DNA from: a virus
Direction: 5' to 3' (one strand)
IMG/VR virus record: IMGVR_UViG_3300001848_000349
Span: 1 to 64,000 of that record
Length of the DNA stretch: 64,000 nt
Below the pieces are notes generated by a model. It searched no databases. It saw only the letters and a list, made by a program, of their open reading frames with translations, and was not told the origin of the DNA. Both the position numbers and the translations under genes were made by a program. Within the stretch, counting starts at the first letter, position 1. Each line of letters opens with the position of its first letter. Shown here in pieces: positions 50,401-62,130 of this stretch.

Positions 50401-53059
50401 AATTATAATTGGAGTCTACAGGAAGTGAATAGAAATTTGCTCCAATAATATATGGGAATACTGGAGTATTTGAACTATCGATAGTTAAGAAGTAAGCATA
50501 TACTCCTTGTGGATAATCTGGAGTTACACAGAATCTTCCATTATTTTGATCTAACTCTGTCTTTCCAGAATTTATACTTGGAACCCAAACATAATCATCT
50601 ATAAAAGATCCAGCTGGATAATCACCAATAGAAGGTCCATTTTCTCTAGAAGAATTTAATTGATAACCGCTAGCAAGTCTAATTATTGAAGAATTTGAAT
50701 CTAAAGGATTTGAATGCCCATAAGGTCCGTAAATTGGATTACCATCATAAGCATATCCTAAAATAGGAGAATGTGTTAATGTATTAGTTTCACTAAACCC
50801 AGCAGTTATATTGTCGTTAATTTTATATCTTAAAAGTTTTGGATTAGCAATCACTCCATATCCATAATTTTTTGTTGGATTGTAATTGATGAAAGGAAAA
50901 GCATTATTAATGTCTAATGTATCAGAAATTTTTGTGTATCTATTTTTTACCCATTTTTTAATAGAGGCCGTTGCTTGAGCACCAAAACCCACTGCTTCTA
51001 CTGTAACTTTAGTAGTTTCTCTCGTATAAAATCTTCCGTAATTAATTGATTTACAAGATTCTATTTTACCCTCTGGTGAAAGTACTGCTTCATACTCAGC
51101 AAAACTTCCTTTTCCTAAGTCATCAGTAATTTTGATGATTGGTGGTGATGAATAGTATTCACCTGGATCATCAACTCTAATGCTAGTAATCTTTCCGTTA
51201 GTAACTATAGCTGTTAATTTTGCTCCTCTTCCAGAAGTTATTGTGATTTCTGGATCTTCTGTAAAATTTTCATCAGTATCAATAAGAATAGAATCTACAG
51301 TTTCTCCTGATAAAACAGATCTTGCTTTATTAGGAGTATTATTAACTAAAACAAAAGGAGCAGATTTGTAACCATTTCCTTTATAAGTTACTTTACTTTC
51401 TACAATTTTTCCATATTTTACATATTCTTCATCTTTATATCCAACAGCTAAAGTTCCATCTACAAAAATGCCCACATCTCTTGTTGAAGTTTTATATACT
51501 TCTGTTGTAATTGTTGGGCGTTTTCTAATTAATCTTAAGATTTTTTGATCTTCTAAGATAATGCTGCTATCAATGTCATTATTAAAAATACTAGTATATG
51601 AAGGGAAACTAGATGAACAAACATAATAATATTGATCATCTTCATAAACAGCAGAAACATCAGAAATAAACTTATTAACTTTAGAGTTTATTTGCGGAGA
51701 AAGAGCAGTTGCTCTAGAAGAACTGTCATTAATTTGCCAACGAATTGATTCGCTAAATTTATCAAAAATAATAGGATCTCTTGTGGAAAAACCAGAATCA
51801 GAAATTTCTATAGTATCGTTGGTACTAGCATAAGGACTTGGGTTAGTTGGAATTAGATTGTAGACAACTCCAACAGTAATTAACTTTACTATGCCAGTGT
51901 CATATGTTCCTTGCAAAGTTGAGTAATTATATACTGTTTGACCAACTCCATGTGTTTGGGGATTGATTCTAGTATCAATAATAAATTGATTTACATTTTT
52001 CTGTGTAAATGTGATAACCTCATTGCCAATTAATAATTTTCCTTGCTTACCCCAACCTAAAGTTGAATATACATCAACTCTATCGCCAGTAGATTCTGTA
52101 ACTGATAAATTATTTTTTAATGTAGTTCTTGAATAAACATTGAATTTGCCATTCACAGATGATGGTTGTAACACTAATTCGTAAATGTCATCCCCTTCAA
52201 AGTTACCAGAATATAAAACATTGTCAACAACAGCAGAAGCATAACCAATAGATTTATCATAATCGTCTAAATTTTGTACAATTAAATTCCCTACTAATTT
52301 TTGAATGTCGCCAGATACAACTTTCACTTTTAAAGCATATGCCGTAGTCCAATCAGAAGTAGAAGACTTTAATGTAAAGTCTTTTGGATTGTAAACACTT
52401 ACCTGTTCATTATTGTCTTTTGAGACAATAGAGTTAAAAATAAATTTTATAGACTTCTCAGTTCCTTTTGATTTATAAAATTTACCTATATTCTTGATTA
52501 AAGTTCTTTTATCTACATTTGTCTTTAAATATTGCTCAGGAAAAGCACCTAAGTACTGTGATTCAAAACTTTTTACTAAAGCATAAAGAAATAGATTACT
52601 GATGTTAGTAACAACATCTCCTTGATAATGTGGAGCTGCTTGAGTTGTTATAAACTCAGATTCCTTGTATAGATTTCCTAAAGTAGTATTTCCACTTACT
52701 CCTCTAGAAACATATAAAAATTGAGTGTCGGTCTTTTCTTTGTAGAAGCAGATTTCATCACCTATTTGAATATAACCGTTTTTATCTGGAAATGAATCTG
52801 TTGATGCTACACTAATAGAAGTGACGTTCGCTAAAATACTTGCCGATAACGTAGTTGTTTGTTGTAATAAATCGTTTTCATATGTATTGATATCACGATA
52901 TTTTGTGATATTATTAATAATATCTAGAGGCTGACCTTTTATTTCTAACTGCTCGTAGTATTTCTCTACAAACTTAGAAAATTCTGTATAATCACTTGTT
53001 ATGAATGAAGGTAGTTGAGACTCTACAAGAGTCGAAATTGTTTTTGTCTTAGCAGCCAT
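44489..53059 (-). CDS. 7: gp7-like baseplate wedge protein with very large insertion and YHYH domain (2856 aa)
   Basis: It occupies the gp7 place between gp6 and gp8. Residues 1-250 (LPSFITSDYTEFSKFVEKYY, NVDKRTLIKNIGKFYKSKGT, EKSIKFIFNSI) match the C-terminal part of T4 gp7 as I remember it (NADKRDAVARFFESRSYDFY, STKGIEASYKFLF). A second gp7-like stretch (YSYVIKSKTPIDVWRDLIKQ, THPAGFQLFGEV) appears near residue 1860. It matches T4 YYVMKIKSNLPSSRWKSDVI and HPVGFGF, which in T4 follow the first stretch by only about 120 residues. Some 1600 residues are therefore inserted between the two. The insert holds a YHYH domain at about 755-880 (HSPILGYAYDGNPIYGPYG, LDQNNGRFCVTPDYPQGVYA) and several GxGYxxxP motifs. 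T4 gp7 is 1032 residues. The gp7 identity is inferred from order and these two motifs. Confidence 0.7.
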   Translation of the reverse strand: MAAKTKTISTLVESQLPSFITSDYTEFSKFVEKYYEQLEIKGQPLDIINNITKYRDINTYENDLLQQTTTLSASILANVTSISVASTDSFPDKNGYIQIGDEICFYKEKTDTQFLYVSRGVSGNTTLGNLYKESEFITTQAAPHYQGDVVTNISNLFLYALVKSFESQYLGAFPEQYLKTNVDKRTLIKNIGKFYKSKGTEKSIKFIFNSIVSKDNNEQVSVYNPKDFTLKSSTSDWTTAYALKVKVVSGDIQKLVGNLIVQNLDDYDKSIGYASAVVDNVLYSGNFEGDDIYELVLQPSSVNGKFNVYSRTTLKNNLSVTESTGDRVDVYSTLGWGKQGKLLIGNEVITFTQKNVNQFIIDTRINPQTHGVGQTVYNYSTLQGTYDTGIVKLITVGVVYNLIPTNPSPYASTNDTIEISDSGFSTRDPIIFDKFSESIRWQINDSSSRATALSPQINSKVNKFISDVSAVYEDDQYYYVCSSSFPSYTSIFNNDIDSSIILEDQKILRLIRKRPTITTEVYKTSTRDVGIFVDGTLAVGYKDEEYVKYGKIVESKVTYKGNGYKSAPFVLVNNTPNKARSVLSGETVDSILIDTDENFTEDPEITITSGRGAKLTAIVTNGKITSIRVDDPGEYYSSPPIIKITDDLGKGSFAEYEAVLSPEGKIESCKSINYGRFYTRETTKVTVEAVGFGAQATASIKKWVKNRYTKISDTLDINNAFPFINYNPTKNYGYGVIANPKLLRYKINDNITAGFSETNTLTHSPILGYAYDGNPIYGPYGHSNPLDSNSSIIRLASGYQLNSSRENGPSIGDYPAGSFIDDYVWVPSINSGKTELDQNNGRFCVTPDYPQGVYAYFLTIDSSNTPVFPYIIGANFYSLPVDSNYNSNISQDDLPISAKRLRSEYSEKNGDNVYCLIQDVKSGNINSCIVESSIPNFSVNNDLIINNSLTEGAGVTAAVATVKGKEVLSLESNQTKAVQISLVSNAYLFEGDAIEQRNSDGEILASGTLIGNVFNTNTFVLRNCEFSVTLSEKKFNLTDRLFSQTKVINVILDKNASFTKGSIVTLTDGKGKEDSDIAFGEILEGTLRQNSLKIKVTSTTDFIIDDNYFLKSSNLDDTPKAKILTILSLSENLEIFDLNDNIAIINTSEPHQLAVGDIVTVDVSPDDTTTETEYYVRKRLYQSAILNEVSHSSTISDTGVGNFTYLNTGLDYQSGTYTDVELVFQDQSLVRNNIGAPGDAYNAKATVVIFPGGFGGVQNIIITDKGKNYRKGDRLTISDDNLHRSPGSINNQRILIEVDHAGFGYNNTLLKLSNVSNLSNDDYLKIGNEIVKITNVDTNKKTVDVIRSQEGTTAVNHYDGKEVSLYEANYRFTDGYRPFGSDVSKPYYISYQSDIKKINVSYSYGVNSPIVLQLSSTFYDNSTPAKLVSIKTVTDPEYQLEFSRDNISFVTNPVIDVQKYYKYKFDTSHYSMVDTYLDFSASANKNIYTEEKYVNNISPGNPGSFLSVKFGFGANISLNNYEDKIPLNYSAFFYFIKASNNVNTEDSFLKIKDDPLTGEKRIIYTTNNKFVYSLSSIPAYDGSGKITYTTSSEYAVGKINSIKILDTGSDYKKVPNVVGVVPTSSKEAKIEAIYDSIKKQIKGVTVVTQGESYSQPKVVVTNGDGNGATFDVVLLDGKIKNVKVVNAGYGYTYSPTLKVIETDLKIYLGSNNIGVPQNVKIIQNGVNFNNDKTTLSSFTSNTVFELKQITKNFTDGEIVTQEYTGASAVVSSSGWRPGTNLLKVYRINGIFESGYPIVGQSSKASAIIKSKIYTEFVPQVKSSYDNIGYYASDRGQLSANSQKLTDSYFYQDYSYVIKSKTPIDVWRDLIKQTTHPAGFQLFGEVLIETEASTRMPTEQRIVESYSCISLPPISLTVVSTKQQITNTLLSVDSLLVERGLGSISVDTFDSSELFSREFGLLTPFNGDDQTDTTKSEGDTVFTMYDKKTNLPLSVSDVDNLIVSLDGIIQEPGKAFVVSGTQLSFSQPPLGERIIEGQTVESQNFYGRIIKFKNNDLNTKYFKSLQDISDQFNGVDRIFELYYKDGSIVKTDENENLLIFLNGVLQKAKQDSLTPYGNSYYILRSDDIQETDKIVFKNPPINPVTTDDLPEKFFGFSVGNYERLTIDSKTIEYRGNGPYLIKDEVTGRVRKIDDASFALVFIDGVLQQEKKSYDIVGPNITFTAPLKKYVFTDGSEVHQNVSIILLYGRDLPKTITAYDYEPDTFYNKITLTVSGSNLIQNFDTLTASYSNHSPEFYSQNVKVFQNNNLLGELKKVDKVSNNIKFTILTPLNDLNLINNNALKFVVNDKNSYTLSGTYTISSQYALNSDGERILVRGKRQPLWLYGYSLGDDIETYRKERSIVSLSPGDLIQIDGENSYREIISVPDVVKQKNYVNEQIITNDLYSKITVTNYNEITRGEGLSINAVIDENGSVIDLIWNKRDLELFFEKNLLLQPTAYQYYTTPIIEFVPQTEFGGGARAEVIAYGGDILDIVLVEGGSGYTEPPKVVVARGYNKIKSNKRKIDSVTSFVISPQIDSTNLIVSTSIQFFLAGQQPNAISIVSFGATFGEIKSDREISSIVTPAQKISTVSYASTGIVDVLLSDIVTKSSTSISPTASIDIKTTIRPELQTTTIASVNREIDRYSVVGLFDYKPSETLTRYGLTNAGFNIGLYENNVFTGSGSSDVSGMTLLEFEIAYPNVTIEQFADRKLSHYMSGGEIFDLVPASVQEFGTYLDAPLSNSLTVIYVTSTTGFPSSGLLLINKEIVRYSSKQSDRFIVQDRGYLNTGAQTHSAGDYIRSIEIADLPLDNILDPGPG

Positions 53060-55738: not shown

Positions 55739-56134
55739 TTATTTGCCCTTACTGGCAAATATTACGTTAGGAAACTGAAAGGGTGCTACGAACAACCTTT
55801 TAGTACCTGGGAATGATGTGAGCTCTGTAGCATCACCTTGTACAGCAGGTAAAAACTTATTGATGAATACACTAGTATTAACAGTAGTAAGTACTTTCCT
55901 TGCTGCTGTGGGCGTTAGACATGGAATTAAAGTACCTGGAGCAGCTGGATTGGGAATCCATGGTTGTCCTTCTACAGTATCTGGTGGTATAGCAGCATGT
56001 ACAAATTGTACTTTTTGCTTGTTGATATACACGTTGGGCGATGTAAAAGGACTTGTTATAGCTTTTGCTGGAAACTCACAAGGTCCATTGAATGATGTTG
56101 TATCTATTGTTTTTGGTCCTATAAGGAGCGGCAT
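55739..56134 (-). CDS. PAAR-like tail spike tip protein candidate (131 aa)
   Basis: PAAR proteins form the sharp cone that caps the central spike of contractile tails. Two internal segments, NVYINKQKVQFVHAAIPPD (near residue 34) and SVFINKFLPAVQGDATE (near 88), have the form of the PAAR repeat (VxINGxPAxxxGD). The protein is rich in Pro and Gly as expected, and its length fits. Cyanophages carry a PAAR protein close to gp25, as here. The start overlaps the previous gene by 16 bases. I did not find clear metal-binding His/Cys triads (only one His and two Cys), so the assignment is tentative; a different small baseplate protein is the alternative. Confidence 0.5.
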   Translation of the reverse strand: MPLLIGPKTIDTTSFNGPCEFPAKAITSPFTSPNVYINKQKVQFVHAAIPPDTVEGQPWIPNPAAPGTLIPCLTPTAARKVLTTVNTSVFINKFLPAVQGDATELTSFPGTKRLFVAPFQFPNVIFASKGK

Positions 56135-56322
56135 TTGTCTTCTACCTCTTTTAAACGTTTATCGATCTCATTTAAATATTCAACAATATTCATATAGTCT
56201 TCACGTTCAGGGGGTTTGTACATCATTTTGAATGGTACAGGAATTTGGTCTAATTTTTGTTTGAGACTATTGACCAATCTCGTTAAGGAATTCAGGCGTT
56301 CCTCCATTTCGTGGTTCCACAT
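56119..56322 (-). CDS. Small coiled-coil protein (67 aa)
   Basis: Begins MWNHEMEERLNSLTRLVNSL, and AAGGAG lies about ten bases before this ATG, which supports the longer start over the internal Met at 56307. Two helical parts (residues 5-27, and 48-67 with NEIDKRLKEVEDKCRSL) flank a Pro/Lys turn (PVPFKMMYKPPERED). It overlaps the preceding 80-residue gene by 56 bases in another frame and the PAAR-like gene by 16 bases. The large overlap is unusual but both genes have supporting signals. No family recognised; a small tail-assembly helper fits the place. Confidence 0.55.
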   Translation of the reverse strand: MWNHEMEERLNSLTRLVNSLKQKLDQIPVPFKMMYKPPEREDYMNIVEYLNEIDKRLKEVEDKCRSL

Positions 56323-56509
56323 TTGTTACATTCTCCTTTTTAATGAGTCCTTCATCGTAGATGCTTTCTACATCGACTTGAGGGGCTTTCAACCCCTGGT
56401 AATATTCATTGGCAATAGACTCCATGGAATCGGCAAATTCGTTGAAGTTATCAAAGAATTGCTCTCTTAGCGTTCCATCGGAAGTTTTAAAAGTAACTTT
56501 CTGTTTCAT
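56267..56509 (-). CDS. Hypothetical protein (80 aa), first gene of the baseplate run
   Basis: Starts MKQKVTFKTSDGTLREQFFD, a beta hairpin followed by an acidic helix (FADSMESIANEYYQGLKA), then a charged tail (NVEPRNGGTPEFLNEIGQ). No clear ribosome site precedes the ATG at 56509, though an AATAAATA late-like octamer lies about 60 bases up. It is the last gene on the AT-rich side before composition changes toward the GC-rich island. It overlaps the next gene by 56 bases. No family recognised. Confidence 0.6.
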   Translation of the reverse strand: MKQKVTFKTSDGTLREQFFDNFNEFADSMESIANEYYQGLKAPQVDVESIYDEGLIKKENVTNVEPRNGGTPEFLNEIGQ

Positions 56510-56567
56510 GGCGACTTTTTGAGAAATTTTTTATGGCGAAAATTTTTTGGATTAGGGATCCTATCGT

Positions 56568-56575
56568 TATTTATT
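56568..56575 (-). promoter_or_regulatory. Late-promoter-like octamer at the head of the structural block
   Basis: AATAAATA on the minus strand, one base from TATAAATA, about 60 bases upstream of the first baseplate-side gene. It would be the entry promoter for the late run toward gp25 and gp6. Confidence 0.35.
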
Positions 56576-56644
56576 TCGGTCGCTTGGATACTTTTGTAGG
56601 TTAGAGAGGGTCAAATATGGGACCCGCTCGGCGCGCCGCCCTTA

Positions 56645-56702
56645 AGGGGGGCAACGGCGAACCACTGCCCCCTGGCGGATGTGCTAGGATCAACCGTTGC
56701 CC
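56645..56702 (-). terminator. Competing hairpins at the end of the GC-rich island
   Basis: Two inverted repeats share one arm. GGGCAACGG (56649-56657) pairs with CCGTTGCCC (56694-56702, the last codons of the gene at 56690), and GGGGGCA (56647-56653) pairs with TGCCCCC (56666-56672). They cannot form together. No T run follows, so factor-independent termination is uncertain. Position, between the early-looking island and the late block, favours a termination or processing role. Confidence 0.35.
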
Positions 56703-56890
56703 ATCACGACAGCGTAGGCGGAGGGCGAAGCGATTGCCTCACGATCTCGCCACTGCTGACTGCCACGCTTAGTCTTGAACCCTACCCGCTGGCAGATCAA
56801 CTCACCCTTACGGGGGCGACGGGGGCGAACCGTCTTGAATGAGAACCCAGCGGCGGCGAGTTGGGCAGGGGTGGCGGTGGCGAAGTTCAT
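56690..56890 (-). CDS. Small basic protein of the GC-rich island (66 aa)
   Basis: Starts MNFATATPAQLAAAGFSFKT, then a strongly basic stretch (VRPRRPRKGELICQRVGFKT, KRGSQQWRDRE) and a short tail (ASPSAYAVVMGNG). I chose the ATG at 56890 because a promoter-like pair (TTGGTG, 17 bp, TACACT) ends about 20 bases upstream. An in-frame start at 56977 would lie upstream of that promoter. The positive middle suggests nucleic acid binding. GC-rich codons set it apart from the structural genes. No family recognised. Confidence 0.6.
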   Translation of the reverse strand: MNFATATPAQLAAAGFSFKTVRPRRPRKGELICQRVGFKTKRGSQQWRDREAIASPSAYAVVMGNG

Positions 56891-56911
56891 CTGGTCTGTG
56901 TGTGTAGGGGT

Positions 56912-56940
56912 AGTGTAGCAGATGGGGGGCAGATCACCAA
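56912..56940 (-). promoter_or_regulatory. Sigma-70-like promoter for the gene at 56690
   Basis: TTGGTG (56935-56940) and TACACT (56912-56917) with 17 bases between, on the minus strand, ending about 21 bases before the ATG at 56890. The -35 overlaps the stop of the upstream 53-residue gene, as in several neighbouring cassettes. Confidence 0.45.
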
Positions 56941-57095
56941 CGCTGGCGATCGTAGCGGGCGTCGCCCCATCCATCACGTTCCCAGCGGCGGGCGTCGTAG
57001 TCGTCGGCGGTCATCAGGTCGTCGTGCTCGGCGTCTTCATAGAATCGATCGGACTTGCCGAAGGACTCACCGTAAGCGAAGGACGTGGTTGCCAT
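56934..57095 (-). CDS. Short acidic/Arg-Asp-rich protein (53 aa)
   Basis: Starts MATTSFAYGESFGKSDRFYE and continues DAEHDDLMTADDYDARRWER, ending GWGDARYDRQRW at 56934. The second half alternates Asp, Arg, Trp and Tyr, an unusual composition, and has no hydrophobic segment. It is preceded at 57111-57140 by the recurrent TAGACTAAC leader and lacks a Shine-Dalgarno site, as do the other island cassettes. Codon use is GC-rich. I recall similar short proteins annotated only as hypothetical in cyanophages; function unknown. Confidence 0.6.
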   Translation of the reverse strand: MATTSFAYGESFGKSDRFYEDAEHDDLMTADDYDARRWERDGWGDARYDRQRW

Positions 57096-57110
57096 GGTTG
57101 GTTGGTTTCG

Positions 57111-57140
57111 TTTGAACTGAGGTTAGTCTACAGGGTCAGG
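57111..57140 (-). promoter_or_regulatory. Recurrent cassette leader, copy 1
   Basis: A 30-base element (minus strand CCTGACCC, then TGTAGACTAAC, then CTCAGTTCAAA) identical to copy 4 at 57790-57819. It contains a -10-like TAGACT and begins 16 bases before the ATG of the 53-residue gene. The upstream TTGCCA is 15 bases from TAGACT. The stop codon of the next gene upstream (57136-57138) lies inside it. Confidence 0.6.
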
Positions 57141-57309
57141 GCATCTGGCAACTGCCAGGGAGGACACTATTGTAGGTGGCACAGCGGGCAGCGGTCTGCT
57201 GGTTGACATGCTGTACGGTCTCGGATGCGAACCCGATCGCTGCCGATCCTACAGCAGCGATGGGGGCATAGAAGGCGGCGCCGAGAATGAGAAGGGCGAG
57301 GGTCTTCAT
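57136..57309 (-). CDS. Small membrane or exported protein (57 aa)
   Basis: Starts MKTLALLILGAAFYAPIAAV and GSAAIGFASE, a hydrophobic N-terminus of about 25 residues after a single Lys, which could be a signal peptide or membrane anchor. The rest (TVQHVNQQTAARCATYNSVL, PGSCQMP) is short and has two cysteines (43 and 54) that could form a disulphide outside the cytoplasm. The ATG at 57309 follows cassette leader copy 2. It is a small GC-rich gene in the island; similar short single-span proteins are common early genes of cyanophages. No function assigned. Confidence 0.6.
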   Translation of the reverse strand: MKTLALLILGAAFYAPIAAVGSAAIGFASETVQHVNQQTAARCATYNSVLPGSCQMP

Positions 57310-57316
57310 GGGGTCG

Positions 57317-57342
57317 TTTGAACTGAGGTTAGTCTACAGGGT
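57317..57342 (-). promoter_or_regulatory. Recurrent cassette leader, copy 2
   Basis: Twenty-six bases identical to copies 1 and 4 (TAGACTAAC and CAGTTCAAA core), eight bases before the ATG at 57309. A TTGATC lies 15 bases upstream of TAGACT and overlaps the stop of the upstream gene. Confidence 0.6.
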
Positions 57343-57353
57343 GGGGTGAGCGA

Positions 57354-57512
57354 TCAACGCTCGAACTGTGCCAGACTGCTAGGTGCCACATGGGCGGGAG
57401 AACCACAGGAGAGGTAGAAGGCGACCATGCGTTCTGCCTCGTCAAGGGTCTTGAACCACTGGGAGTGCCAGTCGTTGCTGTAGGGGCGTTGGTAGCGAAC
57501 TTCGATTCTCAT
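57354..57512 (-). CDS. Hypothetical protein (52 aa) of the island
   Basis: Starts MRIEVRYQRPYSNDWHSQWF and continues KTLDEAERMVAFYLSCGSPA, ending AQFER. The pattern of a short beta hairpin with aromatic residues followed by one helix (LDEAERMVAFYLS) looks like a compact fold, similar in outline to small phage proteins that bind a host protein. Its ATG lies 21 bases after leader copy 3. Gene and leader form the same cassette unit as the neighbours. No family recognised. Confidence 0.6.
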   Translation of the reverse strand: MRIEVRYQRPYSNDWHSQWFKTLDEAERMVAFYLSCGSPAHVAPSSLAQFER

Positions 57513-57532
57513 GGGGTTGGTTGGTTGATGCT

Positions 57533-57554
57533 GTTAGTCTACAGGGTCAGGATG
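57533..57554 (-). promoter_or_regulatory. Recurrent cassette leader, copy 3 (shorter)
   Basis: Shares the CCTGACCC and TGTAGACTAAC core (about 22 bases) with copies 1 and 4 but diverges after TAAC, where the others have CTCAGTTCAAA. The ATG at 57512 is 21 bases further on. Confidence 0.5.
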
Positions 57555-57557
57555 GGG

Positions 57558-57782
57558 TCAGCGTGCCAGCAGGTGACGGTTAGCGAATTGTCCCAGGGAG
57601 GCACCTGGCATCATCAGGCGGAGCATGTCACGACGGCGGCAATCATGGGCGCTGATGCTGCCGCTGTGCCATTGTACGATAGCACGACGGGTCAAGGGCG
57701 ACAGGATGATCCGTTGGCAAGCGGTGCTGCCACGTTCAACGTTGATGAACACGGGCAGGCGATCGATGGCGAAGTTGATCAT
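57558..57782 (-). CDS. Basic hypothetical protein (74 aa) of the island
   Basis: Starts MINFAIDRLPVFINVERGST; the centre is basic (ILSPLTRRAIVQWHSG, HDCRRRDMLRLMMPGAS) and it ends FANRHLLAR. The isoelectric point must be high. It begins eight bases after leader copy 4 and stops just before copy 3, so it too is a self-contained cassette. It lies directly downstream of ardA. No motif recognised; DNA or RNA binding is possible given charge. Confidence 0.55.
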   Translation of the reverse strand: MINFAIDRLPVFINVERGSTACQRIILSPLTRRAIVQWHSGSISAHDCRRRDMLRLMMPGASLGQFANRHLLAR

Positions 57783-57789
57783 GGTTGGG

Positions 57790-57819
57790 TTTGAACTGAG
57801 GTTAGTCTACAGGGTCAGG
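57790..57819 (-). promoter_or_regulatory. Recurrent cassette leader, copy 4
   Basis: Thirty bases identical to copy 1, ending eight bases before the ATG at 57782. No good -35 is visible at 15-18 bases, so activity may rest on the TAGACTAAC block itself. Confidence 0.6.
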
Positions 57820-57862
57820 ATGGGAGGAAGGGGGGCAGCGTGTGCCACCCCCTCAACTGGCA

Positions 57863-58288
57863 TCAGCAGTCTCGAAAGATTGCCACCTCACGGTAGGACT
57901 TCTCACAAGCGGTGAAATCGTAGCGGAGGGTGCTATCGTAGGTTGCTTGCCAATCTACAACCAAAGCGACGGGCACATCGTACAGATCGCTGTAGAATTG
58001 CTCAGCGAAGTCTGCCTCGGATTCGTACCAACCAACGAAGCGATCATCACACCCTTCGATGTTATCAATGCCATCCTCAGCAGCGAGGGCATCAACAGCA
58101 TCGTATCCGATCACTTCACCACAACGAACGTACTCTTCGTAGTTATCAACGAACATACGCTCGTTGTAGTTATCGATGAACTCCAGAATGTCATCGATAG
58201 CGTAGTTGTCATCGATCAACTCTTCGATTTTCTCAACAGTGCTAGCGGCGAGCACTTCTTTGTAGTTAGCGGTCAAGGTGACGGTCAT
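57863..58288 (-). CDS. ardA: ArdA-like antirestriction protein (141 aa)
   Basis: ArdA proteins mimic bent B-form DNA with surface acids and block type I restriction-modification enzymes. The product is very acidic (for example DDNYAIDDILEFIDNYNE). It carries the family pattern DDRFVGWYESEADFAEQFY at about 80-98, then VALVVDWQATYDSTLRYDF and a C-terminal YREVAIFR, which parallels the ArdA ending of IDW, a D/Y pair and V(F)FR. Length is slightly under the 165 or so of plasmid ArdA. A promoter (TTGACT, 17 bp, TATTGT) precedes it and the 5' leader shares TTTGAACTGA with the cassette leaders. Early expression would protect incoming DNA. Family call is good; activity is inferred. Confidence 0.75.
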   Translation of the reverse strand: MTVTLTANYKEVLAASTVEKIEELIDDNYAIDDILEFIDNYNERMFVDNYEEYVRCGEVIGYDAVDALAAEDGIDNIEGCDDRFVGWYESEADFAEQFYSDLYDVPVALVVDWQATYDSTLRYDFTACEKSYREVAIFRDC

Positions 58289-58295
58289 TGGTTTG

Positions 58296-58338
58296 TTTGA
58301 ACTGAAGGAACAATAGAACGGATGGAGGGGAGAGTCAA
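58296..58338 (-). promoter_or_regulatory. Sigma-70-like promoter and leader of ardA
   Basis: TTGACT (58333-58338) and TATTGT (58310-58315) with 17 bases between, followed by CAGTTCAAA (copy 5 of the shared leader end, 58296-58305) and the ATG at 58288. A clean early-type promoter on the minus strand. Confidence 0.6.
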
Positions 58339-58363
58339 GGGGGTGGGGACACCCCCTCAGGTG

Positions 58364-58525
58364 TCACATGCCGTTGGTGTACTCCCCGATGATCATGCCA
58401 TTCTGGCGGACCTGAGCGTATCCGAACTCTTCGGACAGGTCCAGGCACAGATCCCATGCCCGATCCTCATCACAGGTGGTGTTCTCCCAGGGAGCGGAGG
58501 GGCAGATCACGTCGTAGCGGTTCAT
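58364..58525 (-). CDS. Small cysteine-containing hypothetical protein (53 aa)
   Basis: Starts MNRYDVICPSAPWENTTCDE and continues DRAWDLCLDLSEEFGYAQVR, ending IIGEYTNGM. Three cysteines, a helix (RAWDLCLDLSEEFG) and a final beta strand suggest a small compact domain. I recall relatives with an ICPSAPWEN opening in cyanophages but no function. I chose the ATG at 58525, about 26 bases after a CATACT -10 at 58551-58556; an upstream in-frame start at 58633 would span that promoter. Confidence 0.6.
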   Translation of the reverse strand: MNRYDVICPSAPWENTTCDEDRAWDLCLDLSEEFGYAQVRQNGMIIGEYTNGM

Positions 58526-58550
58526 TCGTTGTTTGGTTGACTGTCCCCAT

Positions 58551-58556
58551 AGTATG
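58551..58556 (-). promoter_or_regulatory. CATACT -10 element within a CTGCCATACTA motif
   Basis: The minus strand reads GCTGCCATACTATGG. The GCTGCCATACTA part recurs before the operon at 59429 and, as CTGCCATACTA, before the gene at 59992, where a TTGACA lies 17 bases upstream. Here no good -35 is visible. The 170 bases upstream (58526-58698) hold no gene that I can support; they are very GC-rich. Confidence 0.45.
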
Positions 58557-58698
58557 GCAGCAGATCGGGGGCAATGGTCGGTTTGGTGGGCACTGTGAGA
58601 AGTGGCACAGCCCCCATAGCAAAGCGCCCCCAAGGCGACTAACCTAGAGGGCGGGAGGGGAGGGAAGGGGCAGCGACGCGGCCGCCCAGTTTGTATAA

Positions 58699-58881
58699 CT
58701 AACTCAACAGATCGGGATAGTAAGATTCAACCTCAGAAATCAGTTCCTCATCAGTATAGCTGGTGAGATTTTCTTCCATCTGGTCACCAACAATACGGAG
58801 CAGATCTTTGGTGCTCATGTTATCAAGCAAACGGTCGATGTATGCTTCAACGAGTGCTTGACGATCGAAAGTGTTGTTCAT
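58699..58881 (-). CDS. Acidic hypothetical protein (60 aa)
   Basis: Starts MNNTFDRQALVEAYIDRLLD and continues NMSTKDLLRIVGDQMEENLT, ending EELISEVESYYPDLLS. All helical in appearance with acidic faces; the ending EELISEVESYYPDLL is a motif I recall in short cyanophage proteins of unknown role. It begins 8 bases after the stop of the 55-residue gene and is the last member of the run that starts at 59429. AT content is back to the genome norm. No domain recognised. Confidence 0.65.
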   Translation of the reverse strand: MNNTFDRQALVEAYIDRLLDNMSTKDLLRIVGDQMEENLTSYTDEELISEVESYYPDLLS

Positions 58882-58889
58882 GGTTTGTA

Positions 58890-59057
58890 TCAGTTGGAGG
58901 GGAAGTTACGGCAGACAGCATCACACAGGACACGAACTAAGTCATCGAATTGTTCCTGTGAGTTGGGGAAATGTTCACAAAAGAACTCATCACAGATGGC
59001 ATCAATGTCCTCCATCAGTTGTTCCCTGGCAGTCAACATCTCAAGTTTGGTGTTCAT
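58890..59057 (-). CDS. Small acidic hypothetical protein (55 aa)
   Basis: Starts MNTKLEMLTAREQLMEDIDA and continues ICDEFFCEHFPNSQEQFDDL, ending VLCDAVCRNFPSN. Four cysteines in 55 residues (22, 27, 45, 49) as two pairs could bind a metal or form disulphides, though helix prediction by eye suggests two helices with Cys at their ends. The start codon overlaps the stop of the 42-residue gene as ATGA, so translation is coupled. Unknown function. Confidence 0.65.
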   Translation of the reverse strand: MNTKLEMLTAREQLMEDIDAICDEFFCEHFPNSQEQFDDLVRVLCDAVCRNFPSN

Positions 59058-60859: not shown

Positions 60860-61123
60860 TTATTGAACATTCGTATTTATTTGTTGAATATTCTCACTTT
60901 TAATTGAAGAAGTGATGAATTTACCAACACTTTCACTGTTTTTGATAGTATTTTGAAGGTTTTCTTCGAAATTCTTATCAATTATAGTGTAATTATATTC
61001 TTTATCACTAGAATTGAAGACTACAGTACAAATGTCTTCAGTAATACTCACTGATTTAATAGCTGTACTATTTAAATCTTGATATACTACAGTTTGAGAT
61101 TCTTTGACAATCATTGAAATCAT
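60860..61123 (-). CDS. KTSC-like domain protein (87 aa)
   Basis: Starts MISMIVKESQTVVYQDLNST. The core (AIKSVSITEDICTVVFNSSD, KEYNYTIIDKNFEENLQNTI, then SESVGKFITSSIKS) follows the KTSC pattern: I..V, a V.F strand, Y.Y, and S.GK...(S)I near the end. KTSC domains are small, found in phages and next to lysyl-tRNA synthetases; their role is unclear, with RNA binding proposed. The upstream consensus promoter at 61268-61296 gives a leader of about 145 bases containing three TTTTCCACA boxes and a 12-bp hairpin, so expression may respond to whatever binds there. It is the first gene beyond the origin-like gap. Confidence 0.55.
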   Translation of the reverse strand: MISMIVKESQTVVYQDLNSTAIKSVSITEDICTVVFNSSDKEYNYTIIDKNFEENLQNTIKNSESVGKFITSSIKSENIQQINTNVQ

Positions 61124-61152
61124 TAAAATTTAAAAATTGAGTTTTTTGAATT

Positions 61153-61185
61153 TCTTAAAAAACTTAAAAAGTGAGTTTTTTAAGA
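61153..61185. repeat. Perfect 12-bp AT-rich inverted repeat in the leader of the KTSC-like gene
   Basis: TCTTAAAAAACT (61153-61164) and AGTTTTTTAAGA (61174-61185) with a nine-base loop. It adjoins DnaA-box cluster 1 and lies in an AT-rich stretch of about 65 bases. Confidence 0.7.
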
Positions 61186-61196
61186 TTTTGAGATTC

Positions 61197-61501
61197 TGTG
61201 GAAAACTATTTTTCCACAAGTCTTGAAAACCTGTGGAAAACTCGAAATCCCTCAACCTCATGAACATAGTATAGGGCATTTGGAGGGGTCTGTCAAGTGC
61301 CTGAGAGGTCCTCTGTGCCACTTTGAGAGGTGTCACAATACCCCTTGACATTCGTTCGCTGACGTGCTAAGACAACGACTCCTCCGTACATTAAGAGACA
61401 TTACCGTACAATACATCACACTACCTATATTTTTTAACCTATTTTTAATTATAGAGTTTTCCACAGGTTTTTCCACAGGTAGTTCCGTATCCTGTGGAAA
61501 A
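61197..61501. other. Six TTTTCCACA boxes: candidate replication origin or DnaA-responsive region
   Basis: Exact boxes at 61197-61205 (-), 61210-61218 (+), 61232-61240 (-), 61457-61465 (+), 61469-61477 (+) and 61493-61501 (-). TTTTCCACA is the box sequence I recall from the Synechococcus elongatus chromosome origin (E. coli: TTATCCACA). Boxes 1/2 and 5/6 are inverted pairs with short loops (4 and 15 bases between boxes), the latter extended to 11 bp. AT-rich DNA lies next to both clusters (61124-61190; 61424-61455, with two ACCTAT...TTTTTA-like direct repeats). CCGTACA occurs twice with 20-base spacing (61384, 61404). The gap 61124-61506 has no convincing gene. Roles as origin, as DnaA sink or as hairpin leader remain to be told apart. 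Confidence 0.6.
61268..61296 (-). promoter_or_regulatory. Near-consensus sigma-70 promoter between the box clusters
   Basis: TTGACA (61291-61296), 17 bases, TATACT (61268-61273) on the minus strand, the strongest promoter in the window. A plus-strand TTGACA with a weak TAAGAC (61345-61373) lies nearby, so the gap may fire in both directions. Confidence 0.75.
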
Positions 61502-61506
61502 CTATA

Positions 61507-62130
61507 TTATTTCCATCTAGGACCTATAATCCAACCTACGAGAGATTTACGTTGACCTGATTTAATTTTAGTAACTCTATGTTTAGTTCTTGAGTCAAAG
61601 ATAATAAGAGAACCAAGATCTAGGTTAGCAGTTGTCAATTGATCATTTGGTGGAAGAAGTTGTAGATGTCCACCTGTGTAAGTATTAGGATCAGATAATT
61701 GTAAGGAGAAGGATAATTTTCTTGTATATTCTGCTTTAGGAGTAATATAGTCTGATAGGTTAGTTTCTCTCCAAGCAGGATATTTTTTATTAGCATAAAG
61801 TTCTGTTAGTCCAGAGTCTGTATGCCAACCATAATGATCACCTTGATTGTAGACAGTATATTGCATTTGTCCACCATCTAGGTTATTGATATCATACTTA
61901 AAATTAAGATCATTAGCGAGTCTGATGTAGTAATCAACAAAAGCTGCTATCCAATTTTCTTGTTGAATCCATGCTACTTGAGTTGAGCGTCTATCTTGTT
62001 CAATTGATGGTTGACTACGAAGAATACTAGCAGGTTTGAGGTATGCATCATATTGTTCAAGATGTTGTATCATAATGTTAACAACATCTTGAGGTAAATG
62101 AGTTTGAATGATGACGTTATTTTCTGCCAT
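61507..62130 (-). CDS. 2OG-Fe(II) oxygenase (prolyl hydroxylase-like, 207 aa)
   Basis: Iron and 2-oxoglutarate dependent oxygenases hydroxylate proteins, nucleic acids or small molecules. The facial triad is visible: H103 and D105 in YGWHTDSGL, H184 in SRTKHRVTKI, and R194 in GQRKSLVGW for 2-oxoglutarate. GGHLQLLPP and LGSLIIFDS are the usual core strands. The N-terminus VIIQTHLPQDVVNIM fits the prolyl-4-hydroxylase-like group. Such genes are frequent in T4-like cyanophages; the substrate is unknown. The start lies within the end of the previous gene (14-base overlap), so translation is coupled. It ends six bases from DnaA-box 6. Confidence 0.85.
   Translation of the reverse strand: MAENNVIIQTHLPQDVVNIMIQHLEQYDAYLKPASILRSQPSIEQDRRSTQVAWIQQENWIAAFVDYYIRLANDLNFKYDINNLDGGQMQYTVYNQGDHYGWHTDSGLTELYANKKYPAWRETNLSDYITPKAEYTRKLSFSLQLSDPNTYTGGHLQLLPPNDQLTTANLDLGSLIIFDSRTKHRVTKIKSGQRKSLVGWIIGPRWK

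Follow-up and report, generated by a model that had tools for sequence, protein, structure and literature searches.

DnaA boxes cluster in an intergenic gap of a T4-like cyanophage

The DNA analysed here, called the window, is a stretch of 64,000 nucleotides that forms part of a 71.5-kb virus fragment. An intergenic gap at positions 61124-61506 is flanked by two minus-strand open reading frames, 60860-61123 on the left and 61507-62130 on the right (Table 1). The small left ORF gave no match in a Pfam search, and its family is KTSC-like according to the annotation of Sf-FR1. In relatives, the left neighbour is nearly always this T4-GC 805 / phrog_4357 gene, and the right neighbour varies between the 2OG-Fe(II) oxygenase, an HNH-gene cluster and genes without assigned function. 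Elsewhere in the window (56000-59000) we observed a GC-rich island (0.47-0.57 vs about 0.33) with small ORFs and a repeated intergenic motif, GTTTGAACTGAGGTTAGTCTACAGGGT.

Six exact copies of TTTTCCACA lie within 305 bp of the gap (61197-61501), in two groups of three separated by 216 bp. This bears out the preliminary description, which had also recorded the single further exact copy in the window, at 51782 on the minus strand, inside a 2856-aa structural ORF. The cluster is far beyond chance. Dinucleotide shuffles give an expectation of 1.33 copies per 64 kb, or about one per 48 kb, so the rate of one per 130 kb proposed earlier was too low, but the cluster remains non-random: for six copies in 305 bp lambda is 0.0045 and the Poisson P is about 1e-17, and Markov simulations of the gap's own composition produced at most 2 boxes in 20,000 sequences. 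A+T-rich DNA adjoins both box groups, and a near-consensus promoter lies between them, both as previously described. Another IMG/VR contig (L119) matches the window without a difference over the stretch compared, about 310 bp that take in the left boxes and the right array; it is therefore not counted as independent evidence.

Table 1 Features of the gap and its flanking genes in the window
Feature	Position	Strand	Remarks
Small ORF, T4-GC 805 / phrog_4357	60860-61123	-	Gene next to the gap on the left; lies downstream of the conserved promoter
Very A+T-rich leader, candidate DNA-unwinding element	61124-61196	-	Weak duplex
DnaA box, left group	61197-61205	-	Exact TTTTCCACA match
DnaA box, left group	61210-61218	+	Exact TTTTCCACA match
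DnaA box, left group	61232-61240	-	Exact TTTTCCACA match
Sigma70-type promoter, TTGACA-17-TATACT	61268-61296	-	11/12 matches; points left into the leader, towards ORF 60860-61123
Conserved block TGTGCCACTTTGAGAGGTGTCACA	61314-61337		Between promoter and core; profile of 68 loci
Conserved bipartite core, TTGACATTCG-N9-GTGCTAAGACAAC	61345-61376	+	Single-copy per genome
A+T-rich spacer ACCTATATTTTTTAACC...	61424-61456		Between core and array; wording conserved in orthologues
DnaA box R1, right array	61457-61465	+	Exact TTTTCCACA match; array conserved
DnaA box R2, right array	61469-61477	+	Exact TTTTCCACA; head to tail, 12 bp from R1; spacing conserved
Degenerate third site AGTTCCGTA	61481-61489	+	12-bp register; sequence compared with orthologues
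DnaA box R4, inverted	61493-61501	-	Exact TTTTCCACA; an inverted box at 23-24 bp recurs as the fourth box
2OG-Fe(II) oxygenase gene, right neighbour	61507-62130	-	PF13640, E 8e-13

The locus combines a conserved frame with a variable module

Searching annotated phage genomes at high sensitivity yielded orthologous gaps. As judged from these orthologues, T4-like cyanophages (Kyanoviridae) conserve the gap as a locus present once per genome. Three elements are constant: a sigma70-type promoter on the minus strand, a core in two parts and a very A+T-rich leader. Beyond the core lies a module that varies. The core takes the form TTGACTTTCG-N9-GTGCTAAGnCAAC and stands about 60 bp from the promoter -10 hexamer. 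Read in the direction of the small-gene operon (minus strand), the 68 aligned loci carry GTTGGCTTAGCACG-N9-CGAAAGTCAA, then TGTGACA...TGGCACA and then the -10 hexamer. In 54 of the 68 loci, a -10-like hexamer starts at a distance of 59-63 bp from the core; the window's own lies at about -72. Allowing one mismatch, the core half-site occurs essentially once per genome. We considered the core as a plus-strand promoter and rejected it: TTGAC is present, but the candidate -10 (TAAGCC/TAAGAC) is a poor one, and TTGACA is missing in Syn9.

Leaders have a median GC of 0.23 across the 68 loci. The weakest 100-bp duplex near the window's locus (61069-61168, GC 0.18) is among the top nine of its record; the corresponding stretch ranks first in S-RIM32 and within the top nine in five other records, the window included. 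No such ranking was found at the locus in Syn9 or DSL-LC03, and in S-CAM3 and S-H9-1 some or all of the weakest stretch belongs to the adjacent small gene and not to the leader.

DnaA boxes are present at the locus in S-CAM3, S-CAM1, S-RIM32, S-PM2, Syn1, Sf-FR1, Sf-CH3, Sf-CH11 and Syn9, and likewise in the lake phages DSL-LC02 and DSL-LC03. They are absent at the locus in S-RSM4, S-B43, S-H9-1, S-WAM2, ACG-2014h, Sf-CH1b and S-CAM4. Phages of this array-less kind are on record from the same hosts (WH7803 for ACG-2014h, WH8102 for Sf-CH1b). Genome-wide, the seven array-less phages carry 0-2 copies of TTTTCCACA and the complete array-bearing genomes 4-13; the low counts possibly reflect avoidance or a composition effect. 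In S-PM2 (AJ630128, L014:2464-3291), annotated tRNA-Leu, tRNA-Asn and other tRNAs overlie the core, the array and ORFs; ARAGORN found no tRNA in this region, and the annotation is probably misplaced.

For a survey that does not select on boxes, the core motif alone was scanned in 2.9 million viral contigs, giving 57 loci; together with the isolates, and after removal of near-duplicates, the set comprised 56 non-redundant loci. The variable module holds at least two exact DnaA boxes in 20 of these 56 (including S-PM2, Syn1, S-CAM1, S-CAM3, S-RIM32 and Syn9); in 17 its sole element is a TTGATTCTCAA...TTGAGAAC palindrome, and in 7 it is a CACCGAGGGGGAGA element. Among sister cyanophages (L012:2590-2680, L013, L137, L138 and many core-bearing contigs), we noted a TTGATTCTCAA...TTGAGAACC palindrome or CACCGAGGGGGAGA at this place; by eye, the palindrome somewhat resembles a Fur/Zur-family box. 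A search that required boxes returned at least 119 contigs, and only about a fifth of the matches listed carry the cyanophage core, so that pairs of DnaA boxes are present in other viruses too.

Most relatives have only 2-3 boxes, compared with six in the window and seven in DSL-LC03, which has five boxes in or near its leader. Ten further loci have groups of the left type (at least two boxes in or near the leader); most of these groups are inverted pairs, and some of the loci are related to each other. Thus, the conservation in relatives that the preliminary description proposed to look for holds for the right-hand group, kept at the same locus across many genera; the left-hand group is not universal, though it recurs in several cyanophages.

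Spacing and helical phasing of the array

Thirty-nine consecutive pairs of boxes in the right array stand head to tail at a spacing of 12 bp (part of the set had been chosen for this pair), and at 23-24 bp there is often a further box in inverted orientation. The register of the third site, degenerate in the window, holds an exact box in Sf-FR1, Sf-CH3, Sf-CH11 and Syn1, and near-miss boxes such as TTTTCCGCA occupy the array register. Two loci, L121 and L269, carry both boxes of the pair in inverted orientation and retain the 12-bp period.

This geometry bears on a reading in which the inverted boxes act only as RNA stem-loops, placed in the leader or 3'-terminally in the oxygenase mRNA. The window folds strongly (leader z -4.6, right module z -5.2) and left groups elsewhere are inverted pairs. 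However, hairpins are not conserved in the right array: the right arrays of Sf-FR1, Sf-CH3, Sf-CH11 and Syn1 consist of direct repeats only, S-CAM1 has two direct boxes, and the wholly inverted pairs of L121 and L269 keep their period. No known RNA was found when the window and six orthologous loci were compared with Rfam. We therefore regard an RNA-only function, named beforehand as a result that would overturn the DnaA reading, as very improbable for the locus: it is disfavoured for the right group by the direct repeats and inverted modules, and could still apply to the left.

The distance from the core to the first box ranges from 72 to 156 bp across loci. Among all periods tried between 6 and 20, 10.5 fitted best (R 0.65, 37 loci). 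At this period, the 18 distinct core-to-array distances give R 0.57 (p 0.003; 0.1% of random sets equal it). The pattern had been seen before this first test, and a fixed prediction was then tested on newly fetched loci: 13 non-redundant held-out loci gave R 0.62 with a V-test p of 0.0008 (0.012 without the commonest distance), and in these loci a period of 11 fits about as well as 10.5. All these p-values are weakened by shared ancestry and by duplicated spacer units of 10-11 nt. The same tendency is seen in the palindrome class (distances 76/77, 99, 108 and 117). Taken together, the phasing points to a nucleoprotein complex that would span core and array.

Both the box counts and the phasing speak to one of the three readings first offered, in which the boxes act as a sink that titrates host DnaA and blocks host re-initiation. 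With six boxes in this phage and phage copies multiplying during infection, titration is conceivable, but with 2-3 boxes in most relatives the reading is weakly supported, and a sink would need neither a fixed position nor phasing nor a conserved core. It is the least supported account and we think it highly unlikely; the other two, an origin and a DnaA-controlled promoter, were both kept.

The boxes are very likely sites for host DnaA

Cyanobacterial DnaA binds TTTTCCACA, the cyanobacterial box, in vitro (PMC4674748), and the exact identity of the phage boxes to it upholds their first assignment to the cyanobacterial type. In five complete array-bearing genomes, every box outside coding frames lies at the locus; the remainder are isolated or, in S-RIM32, form a pair in a short ORF. 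A domain profile search found no DnaA DNA-binding domain in 19 phage records, and a phage-encoded DnaA was rejected on this ground. Because non-coding boxes are confined to the locus in the five genomes and no phage checked has such a domain, we consider the boxes very likely to be host-DnaA sites. The DnaA recognition signature is intact in four cyanobacterial (Synechococcus-type) genomes. The S-RIM32 pair is a second inverted TTTTCCACA pair (L008:1120-1141, offset 13), about 1 kb from the main array.

Another host or phage DNA-binding protein that prefers TTTTCCACA might be the ligand instead, and many relatives do carry different sequences at the same place. Set against this are the exact identity to the cyanobacterial box, the near-misses held in register and the conserved signature of host DnaA, and we judge this alternative improbable.

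Exact TTTTCCACA is absent from the dnaN-proximal region (the host oriC) of WH7803 and RCC307, where boxes are degenerate only; the phage array is therefore nearer to the consensus than the host's own sites in these two strains. Mimicry of the host oriC was rejected on the same observation. Beside dnaN, the two hosts share a block, TATTACGGCTGTTT...TTAGTTCTTTTCT, adjoining the degenerate boxes (L361-L364).

A candidate origin beside an early promoter

We hypothesize that the gap is a conserved cis-acting docking locus for host DnaA whose most likely role is replication initiation, a reading that we prefer tentatively and at somewhat less than even confidence. Two oriC-type features are found: clustered boxes with cooperative spacing, and an adjacent A+T-rich element in most genomes. 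A single theta origin has been predicted for Syn9 (PMC2984593), and our analysis places the locus in Syn9, at about 52.5-52.7 kb; in S-PM2 it lies at about 19.2-19.6 kb.

From the sequence, its conservation, spacing, phasing and uniqueness, we infer DnaA binding, R-loop formation and origin activity along the following lines. Host DnaA would bind the right array (R1, R2, the degenerate third site and the inverted R4) and, in this phage, also the second group within the transcribed leader. The array would be kept on a fixed helical face relative to the core and the early sigma70-type promoter. Transcription from this promoter into the A+T-rich leader may open the duplex and leave the leader transcript as primer-usable RNA, as at the R-loop origins of T4. 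DnaA bound upstream could then stabilise the opening or promote firing by the phage's own replisome.

Several points stand against an origin. No GC-skew switch was found at the locus in six complete genomes, where the skew is near-monotone, so the skew check proposed in the preliminary description did not favour one. T4-like genomes need not show such a switch. In addition, many relatives are boxless, T4 replicates without DnaA, and the host oriC has no exact boxes in WH7803 and RCC307.

The same features can be read as a DnaA-controlled early promoter, with DnaA at the array and leader activating or repressing the small-gene operon that starts at 61123, so that early gene expression would track the replication state of the host. 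The -10 hexamer at a fixed distance from the core, the box groups on both sides of the promoter, a phasing that suits a looped regulatory complex, the replacement of the module by other elements in sister phages, as with interchangeable regulator sites, and the lack of a skew switch would all agree with this. On the other side, a core and array present once per genome are unusual for a regulator site, the array, about 130-240 bp upstream of the -10, is remote for a bacterial activator, and the genes of the operon have no known function. We hold promoter control to be a serious contender, though a doubtful one.

The once-per-genome occurrence of core and array slightly favours an origin over promoter control, whereas promoter control, or a dispensable role, is favoured by the missing skew switch, by the swapping of modules and by array-less phages recorded from the same hosts. 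Weighing these, we lean towards a DnaA-assisted origin/promoter locus.

Discussion

The locus can be set beside several known systems. T4 oriE has a cluster of 12-nt repeats and an early promoter (PMC3016281), which the 12-bp direct box spacing and early sigma70 promoter of the cyanophage locus resemble. However, around the annotated oriE we found only coding repeats of gene 5, with a 24-nt period, and no DnaA-box cluster. Homology to oriE was rejected, as the T4 repeats are coding and are not DnaA boxes. The minimal anatomy of T4 oriF and oriG is a promoter with a downstream A+T-rich element (PMC3016281). The cyanophage locus likewise has a promoter and a downstream A+T-rich leader, with a putative R-loop; it differs in that T4 uses MotA-dependent middle promoters and that no DnaA boxes feature in the description of T4. 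Cyanomyoviruses lack motA (PMC2984593). The oriC regions of Cyanothece, Anabaena and S. elongatus share with the phage locus clustered TTTTCCACA near A+T-rich DNA, but the latter is not beside dnaN, would be served by a phage replisome and has no GC-skew inflection.

The E. coli datA site titrates DnaA through a small cluster of DnaA boxes. The cyanophage locus differs in its conserved promoter, core and phasing, and its boxes are too few in most relatives. Host DnaA boxes are also known from origins of phages and plasmids, for example P1 oriR and those of iteron plasmids. There, as proposed here, such boxes lie beside the mobile element's own initiation region, but at the cyanophage locus we identified neither a Rep gene nor Rep iterons, and the replisome is T4-like. 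We know of no origin with host DnaA boxes in a T4-like phage, and a literature search on cyanophage DnaA and DnaA boxes, covering titles and abstracts of open-licence papers, found no report of this locus. The locus suggests a previously unnoticed link between virus and host in replication start or early gene expression.

For the start of replication in T4-like cyanophages, the reviews consulted record just the single theta origin predicted for Syn9. As a candidate, the locus is specific, present once per genome and open to testing in phages that can be cultured, among them S-PM2, Syn1 and Syn9; it also ties a lytic virus to the replication initiator of its host. It is conceivable, although we would sooner expect otherwise, that a large share of marine T4-like phages begin their first replication round at one dedicated origin, where host DnaA would be recruited to an array in helical phase next to a promoter of the R-loop type, and that sister lineages have swapped the array for other sites. 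If so, this would be a modular class of origin in T4-like viruses, linked to the host initiator. If the locus is a promoter switch instead, it would represent a conserved use of host DnaA as a regulator by T4-like phages, with a natural series of module swaps for comparison.
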